From Sphingomicrobium aestuariivivum (GTDB lineage Bacteria > Pseudomonadota > Alphaproteobacteria > Sphingomonadales > Sphingomonadaceae), in the NCBI RefSeq assembly GCF_024721585.1, contig NZ_CP102629.1, positions 1,684,501 through 1,748,500 of the forward strand: 64,000 nt of DNA, in the 5' to 3' direction. Under the pieces are notes generated by a model. It made no database searches and was not told the origin of the DNA. It saw only the letters and a list, made by a program, of their open reading frames with translations. The position numbers and the translations under genes are program-made. Of the stretch, positions 17,058-61,059 are shown piece by piece. Position 1 is the first letter of the stretch. Each line of letters begins with the position of its first letter.

Positions 17058-17482
17058 TCTTCAGGAAGTCGTTGCCAGTCATGGCCTGTGCCGCGTTGCT
17101 CCAGGGGTGCGGTGAACCCGCCCCGACCGAGGATGCCCCGGTGACCGTGCGCTCCGAAGCGCAGAACCGGATGTTCGACCTCTCCCCCGTCAATCGCGAT
17201 ATCGCGCTCAAGCGCGCCATCCGCGCGAGCGGGCTGCGCTGCGAGCGGGTGACGCGCTCGGGCTATGTCGCCGATTACGAGAATCTCATGATGTGGACCG
17301 CGAGCTGCGACGACGGGCGCGACTGGGCGATCTTCATCGGTGCCGACGATTCGGCGCAGGTCCGCAATTGCGTCGATGTCGCCGAGCAGGGCCTGCCGGC
17401 CTGCGAGATCACCCGCGCCGACAGCGAGGGGCAGAACCAGCCCGAGCTTGGCGAGGTCGAGCCCGGCTCGAACGAGCCCTAG
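17048..17482 (+). CDS. Small lipoprotein of unknown function
   Basis: The 144-residue protein starts at a GTG behind GAGGGGAGAA and has a signal peptide with the lipobox LLQGC at about residues 17-21. The mature part holds Cys residues (LRCERV, ASCDDGRD, RNCVDV, PACEIT) that may pair in the periplasm, and a Glu/Asn/Pro-rich tail. No known domain is visible. Its stop shares CTAG with the convergent B2 gene of the lasso-type cluster, but it lies on the other strand and need not belong to it. Confidence 0.75.
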   Translation: MDLIFRKSLPVMACAALLQGCGEPAPTEDAPVTVRSEAQNRMFDLSPVNRDIALKRAIRASGLRCERVTRSGYVADYENLMMWTASCDDGRDWAIFIGADDSAQVRNCVDVAEQGLPACEITRADSEGQNQPELGEVEPGSNEP

Positions 17483-17901
17483 GCGCCGGCCGCCGCCTTT
17501 TGCGGCGGGAAGCGTGCGATTTCCACGAACTCATGGGCGTTGCGGTGGCCCACCACCGGCAGTTCGCCCGAACTCACCCAGACATGCGCCTCGAGCCCGT
17601 CCACGCCGCGGCGGGTGCCGTAGTGCAGCAGGACATCGCGCCGGCGCCGCTCGAGCATGCGCATGGCGACGATGGCCTGGATGAAACATTCGGTCTTCCA
17701 CGGCAGCCGGCGGGCCCAGCCGCGGGTGGCGCGCTCGATGAGGTCGCGCTCCTCCATCGTGGCGCCCGGACGGTGGCGCTGGCGGGTCGGCACGAGCGCC
17801 TCGAAGGGGCGCGACCGGAGCGCGGCGGCAGCGGCGAGATGGTCGCCGAGTGCCTCGATGACGACGCGGGCGGGAAGGCGGCGCACGGGATTTTCGCTCA
17901 C
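17479..17901 (-). CDS. Lasso peptide biosynthesis B2 protein (leader peptidase)
   Basis: This 140-residue protein is a stand-alone B2 of the transglutaminase-like family PF13471. It cuts the leader from the precursor and hands the core to the cyclase. The catalytic Cys72 is in KTECFIQA and His106 in LEAHVWV, with the usual spacing. The GTG start overlaps the stop of the C gene (GTGA, 17898-17901), so the two are coupled. It has no PqqD-like part, which is encoded separately at 21721. Pro/Arg-rich N-terminal residues 38-48 are a little unusual. Confidence 0.9.
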   Translation of the reverse strand: MSENPVRRLPARVVIEALGDHLAAAAALRSRPFEALVPTRQRHRPGATMEERDLIERATRGWARRLPWKTECFIQAIVAMRMLERRRRDVLLHYGTRRGVDGLEAHVWVSSGELPVVGHRNAHEFVEIARFPPQKAAAGA

Positions 17902-19661
17902 GGGCAGCCGTCCTCGACCCATTGCGAGAAGGCGGCGCAGGTCATCGCGCGCCCCAGATGGATGCGGTAGCGAATGACCTGGTCCTCGTCGTCCCAGCCG
18001 CTGGCGGGCCAGTCGTCGAGGGCGCGGCGCATGGCGCGGGCGTTGAACAGATGCGCGCCGGCATGGCCTGCCTCGAGCCGCTCGAGGATGTTGCGCATGA
18101 GCCCCGCATCGCGCAGCGCGGCGGCGCGCCAGTCGGCACCCTGTGCGGCGGTCATCACCGGTTCGCGGATGGCGGGCGGCAGGCGCGGGTCGAGCATGGC
18201 GCGCTGGAGCCAGCGCGAGCGGCCCTCGTGGCGGTAGATATGTTCGGGCAGGCGCAGGCAGAACTCGACCAGCTCGCGCTGCGCGTAAGGGTCGACGAGC
18301 GTGACGCCGTGGCGCAGCTGGGCGGCGCGGGTGCGCGGGGCGGGGTCGAGCTGGAGGATATATTCGCGCAACCGGCGCTCTGGCACCCAGCTGCCGTCGG
18401 CATTGTTGTCGATGCGGATGCCGGCGTCGACCTCGGGGCGGAGCGCGGCGCGGATGTCGCCCGACCAACGGTTGGCGAACAGCGCGCCTGCGTGGCGCCA
18501 GCCCGCGGGGATGGCGAGGAGCCGCGCCAGCCAGCGCGGCGGGGCGGCGCGCAGCGAGGCGCGGATGTCGCGCCCGCCATTGGCGAGGATGAGCGAGGCC
18601 CAGCGCCCCCACTGGCCGCGCGCGGCGGCCGCAATGGTCGGGCGCACGCCATTGTGGCCGAGCGTATAATTGCCCTGCATCCCGTCGAGCATGCGGTTCA
18701 TGCCGAGGTCGGCGGCAAGCGCCTGGCAACCGTCGACCCAGCCGAGATTGGACGGATTGTACATGGGGCGCTGGAAGGCGGCGAAGCCCCAGTTGAGGGC
18801 ATCGCGCAGCCCGCTCGGCGCGGCGCGCAGGCGGTGGTGCTCGCTGCCGAGGTCGAGGCTGCGCAGGCCGGCGTGGGCGAGCGGATATTCATCGACCAGC
18901 TGGATCGTCGAGGGATCGGCATGGGCGGATGGCGAGCCGGTGATGGCGCGCGGGCTGCGGCCCATCGCGGCGAGCCGCGTGAGGATGACGTTGCTGTCGA
19001 CGCCCGCCGAGAGGAAGAGGTCGCCGCGTTCGCGGTGGATGCCGCGGTCGAGCAGGCGCGTGGCCTCTGCCAGTGCCTCGTCGAAGCTGATGTCGAGGGC
19101 TGAGAAATCGGGCTCCCACCAGCGTGCGACACGCACCTCGTCGCCGCGCATCTCGACGACATGGCCGGGGGGCACGCGGCTGACGCCGATGTAAGGGGTG
19201 CGAGGTCCCTCTTCGGGCAATGTCAGGAAGAAGCGCGCCAGCCACTTGTCGTCGAGCCGCGGGGCGCCGAGCTGGCGGGCGAGCGGGAGAGGATCGCGTG
19301 CCAGCAGGATCCGGCCGTCGCCGGTGGCGGCGTAATGGAGCGGACGATGGCCGAGCGCGTCGCGGAAGAGGATCGCGATGTCGGGCCCGGTGAACAGCCC
19401 GGCGAAGCCGCCTTCGATGAGGTCGAAGGCCGCTGCATCGTCAGCGACAAGCAGCGACAGGATGCGGTCGAGCGTGTCCGCGTCGGGCAGGATGTCGGCA
19501 TCGAGCCAGAGCGCGAAGCCGTCGCGCTCATGGGCGGGAGGGGGTGTGTCGGCGGGAGAGCCCCCGGGAACGACGTGCCGGGGGAGGGGGAATTCGGAAT
19601 CGGGTTGCGGCGTCAGCTGCAATTCATCGACTTGCCGACCTTGGTATATTGTCCCTCGCAC
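17898..19661 (-). CDS. Lasso-type macrolactam synthetase (asparagine-synthetase-like C protein)
   Basis: This enzyme should adenylate the acidic side chain of the core and join it to the new N-terminus. From the GTG start it has 587 residues. The C-terminal domain has the ATP pyrophosphatase loop FLSAGVDSNV near residues 216-225. The N-terminal glutaminase-like domain is degenerate and has no Cys nucleophile, as in lasso C proteins. The start is uncertain: a GTG at 19661 lies inside the second precursor gene, and a TTG at 19622 overlaps its last codons. No ATG is available in frame upstream of the conserved region. Coupling with the precursor is likely either way. Confidence 0.85.
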   Translation of the reverse strand: MRGTIYQGRQVDELQLTPQPDSEFPLPRHVVPGGSPADTPPPAHERDGFALWLDADILPDADTLDRILSLLVADDAAAFDLIEGGFAGLFTGPDIAILFRDALGHRPLHYAATGDGRILLARDPLPLARQLGAPRLDDKWLARFFLTLPEEGPRTPYIGVSRVPPGHVVEMRGDEVRVARWWEPDFSALDISFDEALAEATRLLDRGIHRERGDLFLSAGVDSNVILTRLAAMGRSPRAITGSPSAHADPSTIQLVDEYPLAHAGLRSLDLGSEHHRLRAAPSGLRDALNWGFAAFQRPMYNPSNLGWVDGCQALAADLGMNRMLDGMQGNYTLGHNGVRPTIAAAARGQWGRWASLILANGGRDIRASLRAAPPRWLARLLAIPAGWRHAGALFANRWSGDIRAALRPEVDAGIRIDNNADGSWVPERRLREYILQLDPAPRTRAAQLRHGVTLVDPYAQRELVEFCLRLPEHIYRHEGRSRWLQRAMLDPRLPPAIREPVMTAAQGADWRAAALRDAGLMRNILERLEAGHAGAHLFNARAMRRALDDWPASGWDDEDQVIRYRIHLGRAMTCAAFSQWVEDGCP

Positions 19662-19756
19662 AGGTTCCCGTTCGTCGCCATGCGCGCATGCTTGGCAGGA
19701 ACGCGATCGAGACGCGGACAGGACCAGACGGCTTTGTTGACGGTCATCTTGGACAT
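19613..19756 (-). CDS. Lasso-type precursor peptide A2 (47 residues)
   Basis: The leader has W11-S-C-P14-R-L16, the counterpart of the Y-x-x-P-x-L element that B1 proteins bind. After ARM at residues 24-26 follows ATNGNLCEGQYTKVGKSMNC and a final Ser. Glu34 is the only acidic residue after the leader, so it must be the ring acceptor if a lasso forms. Cys33 and Cys46 could make a ring-to-tail disulfide. An in-frame ATG 18 bases upstream would give six more residues. It aligns with A1 without gaps as far as residue 46. Its 3' end overlaps the start region of the C gene. Confidence 0.85.
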   Translation of the reverse strand: MSKMTVNKAVWSCPRLDRVPAKHARMATNGNLCEGQYTKVGKSMNCS

Positions 19757-19799
19757 ACTAGTGGATCCGAACATGAAATACAGGCTGATTTCACCGCGT

Positions 19800-19859
19800 T
19801 ACCTAATAAGAGGTAGCGTTCGCGTCTACAGCTATATTTAACCGAGCGTTAAATTAACG
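19800..19859. promoter_or_regulatory. A/T-rich spacer with two inverted repeats upstream of A2
   Basis: The 116-base gap between the two precursor genes is much richer in A/T than its surroundings. It holds TACCT-aataag-AGGTA at 19800-19815 and the 13-base palindrome CGTTAAATTAACG at 19847-19859, directly after the A1 stop. These could be an attenuator and operator or promoter for A2-C-B2. No long T run follows either repeat in the minus direction. Confidence 0.4.
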
Positions 19860-19872
19860 GGATCGCGCGGGC

Positions 19873-20019
19873 TCAGCTGCCGCAGAGCCGCGACTTGCCG
19901 ATCTTGCCCGAGCAGCCCTCCGCCGAAGGCCCGTTGCCGGGCATGCGGGCGCTCTTCGCCTCGAGGCGGGCGAGCTTGGGCGCCATCCAGGGCGCTTTGG
20001 GGGTGACGGTTTCGGTCAT
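19873..20019 (-). CDS. Lasso-type precursor peptide A1 (48 residues)
   Basis: The gene encodes MTETVTPKAP, W11-M-A-P14-K-L16, ARLEAKSARM to residue 26, then PGNGPSAEGCSGKIGK, SRLC and a terminal Gly-Ser. It shares with A2 the W-x-x-P-x-L element, the ARM triplet, N29-G30, Glu34-Gly35, Lys39, G-K-S at 41-43, Cys46 and the final Ser. Glu34 is the only possible acceptor; a ring of seven would start at Gly28. Cys36 and Cys46 both lie behind the putative ring. It sits 46 bases after the exporter gene, across a palindrome. Confidence 0.87.
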   Translation of the reverse strand: MTETVTPKAPWMAPKLARLEAKSARMPGNGPSAEGCSGKIGKSRLCGS

Positions 20020-20036
20020 ATCGAATCGGCACCGTT

Positions 20037-20048
20037 CTGTTTAAACAG
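20037..20048. promoter_or_regulatory. 12-base palindrome upstream of A1
   Basis: CTGTTTAAACAG is a perfect palindrome 18 bases upstream of the A1 start, between it and the exporter stop. It may be a repressor site or part of a promoter for the precursors; no regulator gene is present in the cluster. Confidence 0.4.
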
Positions 20049-20065
20049 TGATGCTTGACGATCCG

Positions 20066-21724
20066 TTAAACCTGTCTGTTGAGCGTCACGATGCGGTCCG
20101 CGAGCGCCTGGCTCTGCGGGCGGTGGGAGACCATCAGCGCGGTGAGATCGGGGGCCATCCGGCGGATGTTGGCGACGAGCGCGGCCTCGGCCTCGAGGTC
20201 GAGCGCGGCGGTGGCCTCGTCGAGGATGAGGAGGCGTGGGCGGCGCAACAGCGCGCGGGCCAGCGCGAGCCGTTGCCGTTCGCCGCCCGAGAGGGTGGCG
20301 CCATGTTCGCCGAGCGGGCGATCGAGCGCGGGGCCGAAGCGGCTGCGCAGGGCCGAGAGGCCGAGCGCGTCGAGCAATGCATCTACCCTTGCGTCCGGGG
20401 CGCCCGCGTCGAGGCCGAGCATGGCACGCGGCGTGTCCCCGAGAAGGAGGTCGTCCTGCCCGACATAGGCGAGGCCCGCGGCCCAACCGTCATGGCGCGT
20501 GAGGTCGACCAACTGGCCGTCGAGGGTGATGCTGCCGCCAAGCGGCGGGACGAGCCCCGCGATCGTATCGAGGACGAGCGACTTGCCCGTGCCCGAGGGG
20601 GCGACGAGCGCGGTCCAGCTGCCGCGTTCCAGCGCGAGGTCGACGGGCGCGGTGGCAATACCGTCGGCGATGCCCGCGACAAGGCCGCTTGCCTCGAGGC
20701 GGCGCCAGTCGGCGGGCGCGTCGCCCGAAAGCGGTACGGGGGCGGGAGCGGCGCTGGCTTGGGCAAGGAGGGCGGACAGCTCTGCGAAACCCGGCGCATT
20801 GACCGCGATCCCCTGCCACGCGTCGAGCAGCGCGCGCAGTGGCGCATAGAGGCGCGCGAAGAGGATGACGAGGAGGATGAGGAGCGCGGGCGCGAGGTCG
20901 AACAGGAAGAGGCCGGCGTAAAGCAGGGCGACGAGGCTGGCGGCGGCGACCAGCTGGGCGACGGTGGCGGCGCGGATCTGGCCGTCGTCGATGGCGACAT
21001 AGGCGTCGCGCTCGGCGGCGAGGCGCGCGGCATAACGGTCGAGGAAGGCGCTGGTGCGCCCCTCGGCGAGCGCGGCCTTGAGGCCGGCGCGCAGGCGGTG
21101 GGCTTCGTCCACGCTGAGACCGCTCAGCGTCGTGAGGCCGACGGCAGCGCGCTGGCTGGCGCGCAGGAAAGGAAGGCCGACCGCCATGCTGGCCAGCGCC
21201 AGCGCAACGGCGGTCAGGGTGAGCGCGGGCGAGAGGAAGAGCGCGATCGCGCCCTGCACCCCGATGATGAAAGCGGTGACGATGACCTGCTCGACATAAG
21301 CGGCGGCAGTGGCGCTGCGCGTCACGTCATGCTGGAGGAGGCGCTGGAGGCGGGCGGGGCCGAGCAGCTCGGCCTCGCGCCAGCCGATGCGCAGCAGCGC
21401 GTCCGCGACGGCTTCGCGCAACCCGGCCGGATAGCCCTGCGCAAGGCGGGTGCGCAGCCGCCCGCGCCATTCGACCAGCAGCGCGCGCAGGGTCATGACG
21501 AGGAGGAAAAGGAGGAGCAGCGTGCCCGTGCCCGGAAGCGCGGGGAGCCAGTCTGGCAATGCGCCGCGACCCGCCTCGCTCGCGCTGGCGAGGACGGGAA
21601 CGAGGAGGAGGAGCCCTGCGCCCTCGGCGAGCGCGGCGACGAGCGACACCGCGACGAGCCGGTCCAGCCGTGCGCCTTCGCGGGCGCGCAGGTCGGCAAG
21701 GAGGGCGCGGGCCTCGCGCGTCAT
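20066..21724 (-). CDS. Lasso-type ABC exporter (D protein)
   Basis: The 552-residue half-transporter joins a six-helix membrane domain (about residues 1-320) to an ATPase domain with Walker A APSGTGKS, signature LSGGERQRLALARA and Walker B LLILDEAT. Such D proteins export the mature peptide and give the producer immunity. The ATG at 21724 overlaps the stop of the PqqD-like gene (ATGA). The membrane domain is more Ala/Leu-rich than usual. No C39 peptidase domain is attached, consistent with a separate B2 protease. Confidence 0.9.
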   Translation of the reverse strand: MTREARALLADLRAREGARLDRLVAVSLVAALAEGAGLLLLVPVLASASEAGRGALPDWLPALPGTGTLLLLFLLVMTLRALLVEWRGRLRTRLAQGYPAGLREAVADALLRIGWREAELLGPARLQRLLQHDVTRSATAAAYVEQVIVTAFIIGVQGAIALFLSPALTLTAVALALASMAVGLPFLRASQRAAVGLTTLSGLSVDEAHRLRAGLKAALAEGRTSAFLDRYAARLAAERDAYVAIDDGQIRAATVAQLVAAASLVALLYAGLFLFDLAPALLILLVILFARLYAPLRALLDAWQGIAVNAPGFAELSALLAQASAAPAPVPLSGDAPADWRRLEASGLVAGIADGIATAPVDLALERGSWTALVAPSGTGKSLVLDTIAGLVPPLGGSITLDGQLVDLTRHDGWAAGLAYVGQDDLLLGDTPRAMLGLDAGAPDARVDALLDALGLSALRSRFGPALDRPLGEHGATLSGGERQRLALARALLRRPRLLILDEATAALDLEAEAALVANIRRMAPDLTALMVSHRPQSQALADRIVTLNRQV

Positions 21725-22014
21725 GCCTCGACGATCACCAGTCCGGCCTCGCGGGCCTGTTCGAGGAAGGGCAGGATGTCGGCGAGGCACTGCTCGGGGC
21801 TGACGTCATGGTCGGCGACCATCGCCTCGACCAGCGCGGCCACGGTCGTGCCCCCGCCGATCCGGTCCCACAGGAGGGTGGCGATGGGGTCGAGCCCGAA
21901 GACGTCGCCCGCGCGCGGGTCGAGCGCCATCAATTCGCCATCGACGCGGCCGGTCGGGATGGTCTCGTTGCGCCGGATGCGCGTTTCGGGGGTCAGGGGG
22001 GGTGCCTTTGCCAT
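21721..22014 (-). CDS. PqqD-like lasso B1 protein (RiPP recognition element)
   Basis: The 97-residue product has the PqqD fold (PF05402): a winged-helix domain that binds the leader of the precursor and presents it to B2. The central GDVFGLDPIATLLWDRIGG is typical. The leader motif of the precursors at residues 11-16 is its expected ligand. Its start is only 40 bases from that of the divergent kinase. The upstream in-frame codons would start within that gap and are less likely. Confidence 0.9.
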   Translation of the reverse strand: MAKAPPLTPETRIRRNETIPTGRVDGELMALDPRAGDVFGLDPIATLLWDRIGGGTTVAALVEAMVADHDVSPEQCLADILPFLEQAREAGLVIVEA

Positions 22015-22054
22015 GCCCGTTGGGGTAAGCCGCCCCCAGATGGAGGGCAAGAGG

Positions 22055-22939
22055 ATGCACGGTCACGGCGCCTTCGGGCTGCACTTTGCAAGCGAATTGC
22101 CGCTGCCCGAGCTATATGCCGCCGAGGGGGAGGCGGATGTCGTCATCCGCTTCGGCCGCGATGCTGCGCTCGAGCCCGACCTCGAGACCGACTGGCGGGT
22201 GGAGGAGGACGGCACGGTCGCCTTCGAACTCCACGGCATCCGCTACCGCGTGCGCGAGGGGCGCGAGATCCATGTGACCGCGCCCGAGGAGACGCCCGAG
22301 GCGATGGTGCGGGTGTGGTTGCTCGGTTCGGTGATGGGCGCGCTGTTGCTCCAGCGCGGGATGCTTACCGTCCATGCCAATGCGGTGGCATTCGGCGAGG
22401 GCGACGCGGCGGCCTTCCTCGGCGACAGCGGGGCGGGCAAGTCGACGCTGGCGGCGAGCCTCCGGCAGGCGGGGCTGCGGCCGCTGTGCGACGATTTGCT
22501 GGCGATCCAGTTCGACGGGGAGGGCGCGTGGGTGCGACCCGGCATCCCGCGGATCAAGCTCGGGCCGGTGGGCGCCGACGCGCTGGGCATCAGCCTCGAG
22601 GGGCTGCCCAAGGTGGCGCCCGACATCGACAAGTACCAGCTGCCGCTCGACCGCTCGGCGCCGTGGCAGGACCGCTTCCGGCTGTCACGGCTCTACCGGC
22701 TCGACCAGGGGGAGTTCGCCATCACCCCGATCCGCGGGCAGGAAGCCGCGCTGGCGATGCTCGACAACCTGTTCCGTCCCGCGATCGGCGAGGAACTGGC
22801 CGATGACGACCGCCGCTTCGTGCAGGCGATGCGGCTGGCCAATGATTGCGCGACCTTCGCTTTCGCGCGGCCGTTCCGCCTCGACGAGGCGGTCGACAAT
22901 GCGCGCCGGCTGAAGGCGCATCTCGACACGGCGCTGTAG
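22055..22939 (+). CDS. HPr-kinase-like protein of the lasso-type cluster
   Basis: The 294-residue protein has a C-terminal HPr kinase/phosphorylase-like domain with Walker A GDSGAGKST at residues 123-131, preceded by LTVHANAV and followed by LCDDLLAI, the two other conserved patches of this family. Kinases of this kind phosphorylate the C-terminal Ser of the paeninodin precursor. Both precursors here end in Ser, so the same reaction is a fair guess. The ATG at 22055 sits eight bases behind GGAGG; an earlier in-frame ATG at 22040 lacks such a site. Confidence 0.85.
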   Translation: MHGHGAFGLHFASELPLPELYAAEGEADVVIRFGRDAALEPDLETDWRVEEDGTVAFELHGIRYRVREGREIHVTAPEETPEAMVRVWLLGSVMGALLLQRGMLTVHANAVAFGEGDAAAFLGDSGAGKSTLAASLRQAGLRPLCDDLLAIQFDGEGAWVRPGIPRIKLGPVGADALGISLEGLPKVAPDIDKYQLPLDRSAPWQDRFRLSRLYRLDQGEFAITPIRGQEAALAMLDNLFRPAIGEELADDDRRFVQAMRLANDCATFAFARPFRLDEAVDNARRLKAHLDTAL

Positions 22940-22953
22940 CGCGAACAGCAAAA

Positions 22954-22979
22954 AACGCCCCCGAAAGCTCGGAGGCGTT
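22954..22979. terminator. Bidirectional terminator between kinase and rpmJ
   Basis: The stem AACGCC..CCGA/TCGG..GGCGTT separates two convergent genes; a run of six T follows on the minus strand, so it is strongest for rpmJ. Confidence 0.8.
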
Positions 22980-23021
22980 CAATGCTGTCTCAAGACCTGC
23001 GCTTGGGCAGGCGCCGGAGGC

Positions 23022-60681: not shown

Positions 60682-61059
60682 TTACTTGCAGAGCATCGGC
60701 CCCAGCGGCTCGCCCGCGAACAGGTGGACGTGCAGGTGGGGCACTTCCTGGCCTGCGCGCTGGCCGACATTGGCGAGCATGCGATAGCCCTGCTGCTCCA
60801 TCCCGCGATCGCGCGCGACCTTGCCGACGAGGCGGACGAAATCGAGGATTTCCTCGTCCGACGCCTTGGCGGTGAAATCGTCCCAGCTGACATATTGCCC
60901 CTTGGGAATGACGAGGATGTGGTGCGCCGCGAGCGGATTGATGTCGTGGAAGGCGAAGCTGTGGTCGGTCTCGGCTTCCTTGTGGCAGGGCAGCTCCCCG
61001 CTCAGGATCTTGGCGAAGACATTGTCCGGATCATAGGGCTTGGTGGCATCGATCGGCAT
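60682..61059 (-). CDS. HIT family protein (HINT-like)
   Basis: The 125-residue protein has the histidine triad HLHVHLFAG near residue 110 and ILSGELPCHK near residue 18. Members hydrolyse nucleoside phosphoramidates or other nucleotide conjugates. It is divergent from sspB. Confidence 0.95.
   Translation of the reverse strand: MPIDATKPYDPDNVFAKILSGELPCHKEAETDHSFAFHDINPLAAHHILVIPKGQYVSWDDFTAKASDEEILDFVRLVGKVARDRGMEQQGYRMLANVGQRAGQEVPHLHVHLFAGEPLGPMLCK

Follow-up and report, generated by a model that had tools for sequence, protein, structure and literature searches.

The 64,000-nucleotide stretch of the Sphingomicrobium aestuariivivum genome studied here (contig NZ_CP102629.1, positions 1,684,501 to 1,748,500; hereafter the window) contains, at 17479-22939, a gene cluster that very likely encodes a kinase-type (paeninodin/Syan-like), split-B lasso peptide pathway. 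This class of ribosomally synthesized and posttranslationally modified peptide (RiPP) system, in which the leader-binding protein B1 and the leader peptidase B2 are separate, is already known. New are an Ala at leader position -2 together with a non-Tyr residue in the RiPP recognition element (RRE), 4 precursors at 2 sites of one genome, and a scattered machinery in sister species. A preliminary description of this DNA had recognized the cluster and 2 short precursor genes; the Ala(-2), the further precursors A3 and A4, the cysteine pairs, and the dispersal of the pathway go beyond it.

Gene content and conservation of the cluster

All the genes previously named were found within 17479-22939, as follows (aa, amino acids):

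17479..17901, minus strand: B2, transglutaminase-like leader peptidase, 140 aa, GTG start (PF13471, E 1e-15, and NF033537)
17898..19622, minus strand: C, asparagine-synthetase-like lasso cyclase, 574 aa (PF00733, E 2e-13, above the gathering score)
19613..19756, minus strand: A2 precursor, 47 aa; predicted leader 19756-19682, predicted core 19681-19616, MATNGNLCEGQYTKVGKSMNCS
19873..20019, minus strand: A1 precursor, 48 aa; predicted leader 20019-19945, predicted core 19944-19876, MPGNGPSAEGCSGKIGKSRLCGS
20066..21724, minus strand: D, ABC exporter, 552 aa (PF00005, E 7.5e-27)
21721..22014, minus strand: B1, discrete RRE (PqqD-like), 97 aa (PF05402 PqqD, E 9e-18)
22040..22939, plus strand: K, HprK/PEPCK-fold kinase, 299 aa, divergent from B1 across a gap of 25 base pairs

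Domain matches bear out the proposal of a lasso-type RiPP cluster with separate B1, B2, C, and exporter genes. B2 scored 60 bits against the NCBIfam model NF033537 (lasso_biosyn_B2, cut-off 33), as a lasso leader peptidase should, and its Cys72 and His106 were invariant among 12 homologues. The 3 PDB matches of B1 (9x90, 5v1u, and 6jx3) are all lasso RREs, while C matched the fold of the TsnB9/beta-lactam synthetase/AsnB family, with its catalytic residues conserved in an alignment of 9 homologues. Sequence matches of K to kinase models were weak (TIGR04352, HprK-related kinase A, E 4e-6, under cut-off); with Foldseek, its AlphaFold model (pLDDT 93) found PEPCK (E 4e-9) and HprK/P (3tqf and 1kkl, E 2e-5). 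The kinase-motif residues His112, Gly131, Gly133, Lys134, Ser135, Asp151, and Asp152 were invariant in 12 homologues and match the lasso-kinase motif given in PMC10368454, 2 glycines of which are dispensable in BsfK. K, which had been listed as a divergent gene in the unusual order, is part of the lasso system, and a kinase is ordinary for clusters of this type.

The 2 precursors are real. A profile built from nine precursors and searched in 71 same-genus genomes gave 16 matches with E < 1e-9 in 10 of them (next best match E 0.0018); 14 lie within lasso loci, and the other 2 are an unlinked pair in the window's own genome. That A1 and A2 are chance open reading frames was rejected given this conservation in 10 genomes. 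Both have orthologues in the related locus L025 and copies at the same position in L026. Against L025, nonsynonymous (dN) and synonymous (dS) divergence was 0.25 and 0.73 for A1 and 0.30 and 0.57 for A2, values that come from fewer than 50 codons each and carry no significance test. A motif scan (Trp/Tyr motif; Thr, Ile, Val, or Ala at -2; acidic residue at core positions 7-9) of 53 kb of the window outside the cluster gave no candidate. L073 (a duplicate of L034), unconvincing small open reading frames, and false candidates in L045, L145, and L160 were set aside.

The preliminary description had called the gene order unusual. It does differ from the usual proteobacterial type, but uniqueness to this strain was rejected, as the arrangement K / B1-D-A-C-B2 recurs in 8 relatives, though not across the whole genus:

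Relatives with 2 precursors: L025, L026, L068
Relatives with 1 precursor: L028, L045, L069, L070, L071

L069 has an additional NTP_transf_5 gene between A and D, and in a ninth relative, L029, the contig stops beyond A. The cluster lies between the PPI gene and rpmJ in 8/8 relatives whose locus reaches both sides. Of 61 genomes searched for B2 at E <= 0.001, 37 belong to the same genus (counting that of the window) and 24 to other families; the 23 genomes with a match all fall in the former group, and none in the latter. A family-wide scan of 397 genomes drawn evenly gave 5 with a precursor match at E <= 1e-5, 4 of them of this genus, so the window-type precursor looks rare outside it. A scan of genome contigs with C confirmed no relative.

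The genes are tightly packed. The start of D and the stop of B1 overlap by 4 nucleotides, as do the GTG start of B2 and the stop of C. Judged from the relatives, the most likely start codon of C is TTG 19622, which falls within the final codons of A2: upstream in the C frame, L025 offers no ATG, GTG, or TTG other than the corresponding TTG, and in L026 a TTG lies directly 3' of the A2 stop. With such a start, A2 and C are probably translationally coupled. GTG 19661 was rejected as the start of C, being absent from L025. That the cluster is decaying and inactive seems highly improbable. C does lack an ATG start, and the B2 and K frames are broken in the relative G006 (L027), but in the window all frames are open and genes overlap, the same syntenic site is kept in 8 relatives, and amino-acid changes are fewer than silent ones.

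The frame-broken K and B2 pieces of G006 lie at 9524-10570 of L027, and this relative may have lost the pathway. In the window, rpmJ (L36; 23022-23147) is tail-to-tail with K, with a terminator-like hairpin at 22953-22980 in between, and rpmJ adjoins the kinase in the 8 relatives as well. Another hairpin was seen by eye near the start of C, and a scan for sigma-70 promoters found none. Immediately 5' of the A2 start codon, the 12 bases GGATCCACTAGT (window 19757-19768) resemble a string of cloning-vector polylinkers; the likeness is probably a coincidence, the genome being a single contig.

Leader end, recognition element, and predicted product

Both precursors carry W-x-x-P-x-L at residues 11-16, as had been noted, and 16/16 window-type precursors share Trp11, Pro14, Ala24, Glu34, and Gly35 (A1 numbering). 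The Trp in place of Tyr, also pointed out earlier, is not novel: the motif has already been written [Y/W]xxPx[L/V/I/F/A], and the structure of a WxxPxL leader, that of PbaA, is available in complex with its RRE, which it contacts through Trp(-15), Pro(-12), and Leu(-10) (PDB 9x90; PMC13381572). Control precursors of Bacillota kinase-lasso loci mostly have Trp(-15), Thr(-2), Asp9, and a C-terminal Ser. We placed the cut in the window at Arg25|Met26 because this register is shared with the PbaA leader and the Bacillota controls.

This register makes Ala(-2)-Arg(-1)|Met the most likely leader end, as read from the alignment, in place of one with Thr(-2), and a Glu9 ring is predicted. The ring acceptor is Glu9 in A1-A4 and Glu8 in the second precursors of L025 and L026. 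The precursors thus combine a [Y/W]xxPx[L] leader with Asp or Glu at core positions 7-9, as lasso precursors do, and Trp, Pro, and Glu are invariant in the 16. The Thr(-2) of many lasso leaders is absent, residue -2 being Ala in 16/16. Nine of these (and 5 precursors of a second type) came from a scan unfiltered at -2, and 7 from the profile, which already contained Ala. The genus has a second leader type with the ending AG-x-AE|, in which Ala is equally far from Trp. Thr(-2) is not exclusive in print, where Ile, Val, and Ala exceptions are described (PMC10368454), and, according to the same paper, Ala(-2) precursors were predicted by Kretsch et al. 2023.

A lasso cluster cut one residue later (Ala-Arg-Met|Pro/Ala), with mostly Glu8 rings and Arg(-2), is quite unlikely. 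It would give the classical Thr(-2)-Met(-1)|Gly1 in L028 and L045, and a ring of 8 is allowed, but residue -2 would vary (Arg, Gln, Thr, Leu, Gly) where the favored register has Ala throughout. Moreover, A1, A3, and A4 would begin with Pro, which is a poor nucleophile, and Trp would stand at -16 instead of the -15 of PbaA; both -16 and -17 are, however, found elsewhere among lasso leaders.

The Arg25|Met26 register exposes a contrast in B1. An RRE tyrosine is suspected of contacting Thr(-2) (PMC10368454), and Val38 of B1 sits where the lasso RREs of Thr(-2) leaders have this Tyr. Results showed that the position is Val, Cys, or Ala in 27/27 tabulated Ala(-2) systems and Tyr in 17/17 loci read as Thr(-2). 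B1 and precursor lie at one place in 18 of the 27 and far apart in one genome in the other 9:

Ala(-2), Val in the RRE, one place: window, L025, L026, L068, L071
Ala(-2), Cys in the RRE, one place: L028, L045, L069, L070, L034, L035, L041, L046, L072, L100, L146, L148, L149
Ala(-2), Cys in the RRE, far apart: G004, G063, G022, G473
Ala(-2), Ala in the RRE, far apart: G021, G017, G011, G032, G069
Thr(-2), Tyr in the RRE: L076, L079, L080, L081, L083-L088, L090, L096, L097, L099, L105, L106, L108

Thr(-2) was read with the aromatic residue at -15 in most controls, at -16 in L079, L096, and L106, and at -17 in L099, L105, and L108; for L105, Ile is an alternative reading of residue -2. For L140, L146-L149, and L151-L161, the residues were taken by eye from printed, unaligned segments. 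Left out were L082 and L112 (ambiguous -2; B1 of L112 has Val in a gappy stretch), the second B1 of L085 (Leu), L111 (Thr, no precursor), and B1 proteins without a called precursor, with Cys or Ala in L043, L147, G029, and G020, and Tyr in L074, L075, L077, L091, L093, L094, L095, L101, L103, L104, and L109. In a quickly built kinase tree, many of whose forks are weak, the -2 and RRE traits each change once among the labelled rows, so the pattern is one clade-level contrast and not many. We infer that the non-Tyr residue of B1 and Ala(-2) form a matched pocket; the switch offers a natural test of how RRE and peptidase jointly form the -2 pocket.

The cores suggest what the product may be. A C-terminal Ser, the acceptor expected with this kinase type, is present in A1-A4 and in 14/16 precursors overall. 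The A1 core has Cys11 and Cys21, both outside the Glu9 ring, and the A2 core has Cys8 within the ring and Cys21 near its end. By the disulfide definitions of PMC9266682, the predicted bridges would be class IV-like in A1 (Cys11-Cys21) and class III-like in A2 (Cys8-Cys21). Core Cys pairs occur in 7/16 precursors (the window pair, the L025 pair, A3, A4, and one of the L026 pair), and L080, from an uncultured proteobacterium, has a comparable ring Cys and penultimate Cys. For a lasso with its disulfide, the calculated [M+H]+ is 2172.995 (A1), 2315.988 (A2), 2222.004 (A3), and 2174.963 (A4); a single phosphate would raise it to 2252.961, 2395.954, 2301.970, and 2254.929, respectively.

In the proposed mechanism, B1 would grip the leader through Trp(-15), Pro(-12), and Leu(-10), K would phosphorylate the C-terminal Ser of the linear precursor, and B2 would cut after Ala(-2)-Arg(-1), with Val38 of B1 as part of the Ala(-2) pocket. 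C would activate Glu9 for bonding with the liberated amine of Met1, closing the ring around the tail, and D would export the product. After export, the Cys pairs would oxidize; the resulting bridge would lie outside the ring in A1 and connect ring and tail in A2. The same machinery would mature the unlinked A3 and A4. It is a guess that D secretes the peptides and that they act on the cell surface or against neighbors. If true, one cluster giving phosphorylated lassos with either a ring-tail or a tail disulfide would be a useful peptide scaffold.

Several points weigh against the kinase-type lasso pathway as drawn here. A lasso product is predicted from the genes. The tails are rich in Gly, Ser, and Lys, and between A1 and A2 they have a single aromatic residue, Tyr12 of A2; lacking obvious plugs, they make a threaded lasso not obvious. 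To our knowledge, Met as core residue 1 is unusual. The NCBIfam lasso-specific models for B1, and NF033535 for C, score under cut-off. Two of the 16 precursors, both of L026 (5345-5740), are without the C-terminal Ser despite a kinase gene, and the phosphate may go elsewhere there. Since the later motif scans required Thr, Ile, Val, or Ala at -2, other residues cannot be shown absent, and in several Thr(-2) controls an alternative spacing would put Ala or Ile at -2. Given the single change on the kinase tree, relatedness alone could yield the Ala/Tyr contrast. Finally, the change Ile(-2)Ala blocked leader removal in BsfA (PMC10368454), whereas the window leaders carry Ala(-2), which would therefore be functional only if the B1/B2 pair of the window differs.

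The missing plugs would also fit a phosphorylated but unthreaded peptide, linear or cyclic, resembling the linear polyphosphorylated peptides (LPP), whose clusters, some of them in capsule loci, share an RRE, an exporter, and the same types of HprK-like kinase and NTP transferase (PMC13381572). We consider such a product improbable: LPP clusters are without a cyclase and have the leader removed by a signal peptidase, while C and B2 are present and conserved here (a signal peptidase gene was not searched for), and the acceptor Glu is invariant in 16 precursors.

Unlinked precursors and scattered genes

The genome of the window holds a second precursor pair, unlinked to the cluster:

G000:C1:60547-60696 and 60879-61028 (L067 7548-8029): A3 and A4 precursors

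Along the contig, 1.64 Mb separate the pair from the cluster (0.70 Mb in the opposite direction, should the contig be circular), and the surrounding 17 kb gave no match to B1, B2, C, D, or K. It adjoins the sole NTP_transf_5 gene of the genome (PF14907, E 2e-33), followed by an exopolysaccharide-type gene. The whole genome has one B1, one B2, and one C match, and one lasso K besides one short match (E 8e-4). Between A3 and A4, dN is 0.22 and silent sites are saturated (proportion of silent differences, pS, 0.76). We infer from this that the cluster machinery also matures A3 and A4 in trans.

That A3 and A4 are instead a relic, or are processed by other enzymes, appears rather unlikely, although some evidence points that way. 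The roughly 7 kb to each side of the pair contain no machinery, and a direct tie to NTP_transf_5 is weakened by its presence above cut-off in 46/71 same-genus genomes; in G002, G013, and G077 it neighbors the same DUF305 gene, and no precursor was detected there, so that a linked NTP-transferase/precursor locus was rejected as a general rule. On the other side, the leader is the same as in the window precursors and the core near-identical, the proteins are conserved while silent sites are saturated, the genome offers only one B1, B2, and C match, and precursors of sister species would likewise need machinery encoded elsewhere.

This last point comes from a comparison of B1, B2, and C positions in 25 same-genus genomes, chosen for having hits. 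All 25 had exactly one B1 and one B2 match; C-like matches numbered more than one in G021, G022, G024, G032, and G068, and the copy chosen as C was the one beside a precursor, otherwise beside B1 or B2. With G064, G065, and G078 (weak B1/B2 matches) left out, the 22 remaining genomes comprised 8 compact ones, 6 with B1, B2, and C at 2 places, 6 at 3 places, and 2 in which C was unplaceable. The 3 genes are therefore scattered in 12/20 genomes with C placed, 67 to 974 kb apart (by the shortest route where the length of the contig was known) or on different contigs in the draft G008:

Scattered B1, B2, and A-C genes: G021, G032, G017, G011, G004, G063, G069, and others (L141-L164)

Among the separate sites fetched, an ABC exporter adjoins B1 in 7/10, K adjoins B2 in G021, G032, G029, and G020 while the other B2 sites are without K, and an Ala(-2) precursor lies close upstream of C in 10/11, the exception being G009. 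G473, from another genus, has a B1-C-B2 locus with no local precursor found; its sole profile match (E 9e-7) is 1.9 Mb distant on the contig, or about 1.4 Mb in the opposite direction. This lone Ala(-2) lasso-type precursor (L138 8661-8813; the locus is L140 9364-11966) overlaps the start of an open reading frame that by eye resembles a TPR/2OG-oxygenase protein.

On balance we lean slightly towards a trans-acting, genome-scattered pathway in many species, with a single B1 and B2 and an A-C unit up to ~1 Mb apart and with matched Ala(-2) and non-Tyr RRE; the window would be its compact form, with further precursors by an NTP-transferase gene. We hold this less firmly because C-like genes are not single-copy in every genome. 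RiPP genome mining seeks adjacent genes, and with peptidase, RRE, and cyclase far apart in 12/20 genomes and precursors standing alone, it could overlook such pathways and their products or judge them incomplete. Neither lasso precursors unlinked to a cluster nor dispersed lasso genes turned up in a literature search of limited scope, a result that argues weakly for novelty; these, or the -2/RRE covariation, may already be in print.

Comparison with known lasso systems

Isopeptidase-type lasso clusters, such as that of sphingopyxin, share with the window a lasso pathway in Sphingomonadales. They have the order A-C-B, a fused B, an isopeptidase, and a TonB receptor. In the window, B1 and B2 are separate genes 3.8 kb apart, and a Pfam scan found no isopeptidase or TonB receptor among 7 flanking proteins, 2 of which matched nothing; on these grounds, assignment to the isopeptidase type was rejected. 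The contrast drawn by the preliminary description with the usual proteobacterial lasso type was fair, as a 2016 paper describes the B protein as intact in every proteobacterial lasso system characterized until then (PMC5067487).

With the bsf cluster of Bradymonas sediminis, the window shares a kinase, a split B, and a residue other than Thr at -2, which is Ile in bsf; Ile or Val(-2) is reported also in Sphingomonadales (PMC10368454). The 2 differ in that BsfB1 retains the Tyr, the Bsf core ends in Asp, and BsfK phosphorylates Ser3 in the ring. Class III (BI-32169) and class IV (LP2006, pandonodin) lassos likewise have one disulfide, either ring-tail or within the tail, whereas the window cluster would yield both types, from bonds that are predicted only.

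The likeness is closest to the split-B kinase systems, already known for instance as SyanB2 and SyanK of Sphingobium yanoikuyae (PMC10368454, PMC9266682). Paeninodin-type systems (PadeK, ThcoK, SyanK, PsmK) share with the window discrete B1 and B2, C, an HprK-like kinase, a C-terminal Ser in most precursors, and the Trp/Tyr-xxPx-Leu leader. In contrast to their Thr(-2) and RRE Tyr, the window has Ala(-2) and Val in B1, together with 2 clustered and 2 unlinked precursors, Cys pairs, and, as a possible further difference, a kinase divergent from the operon.

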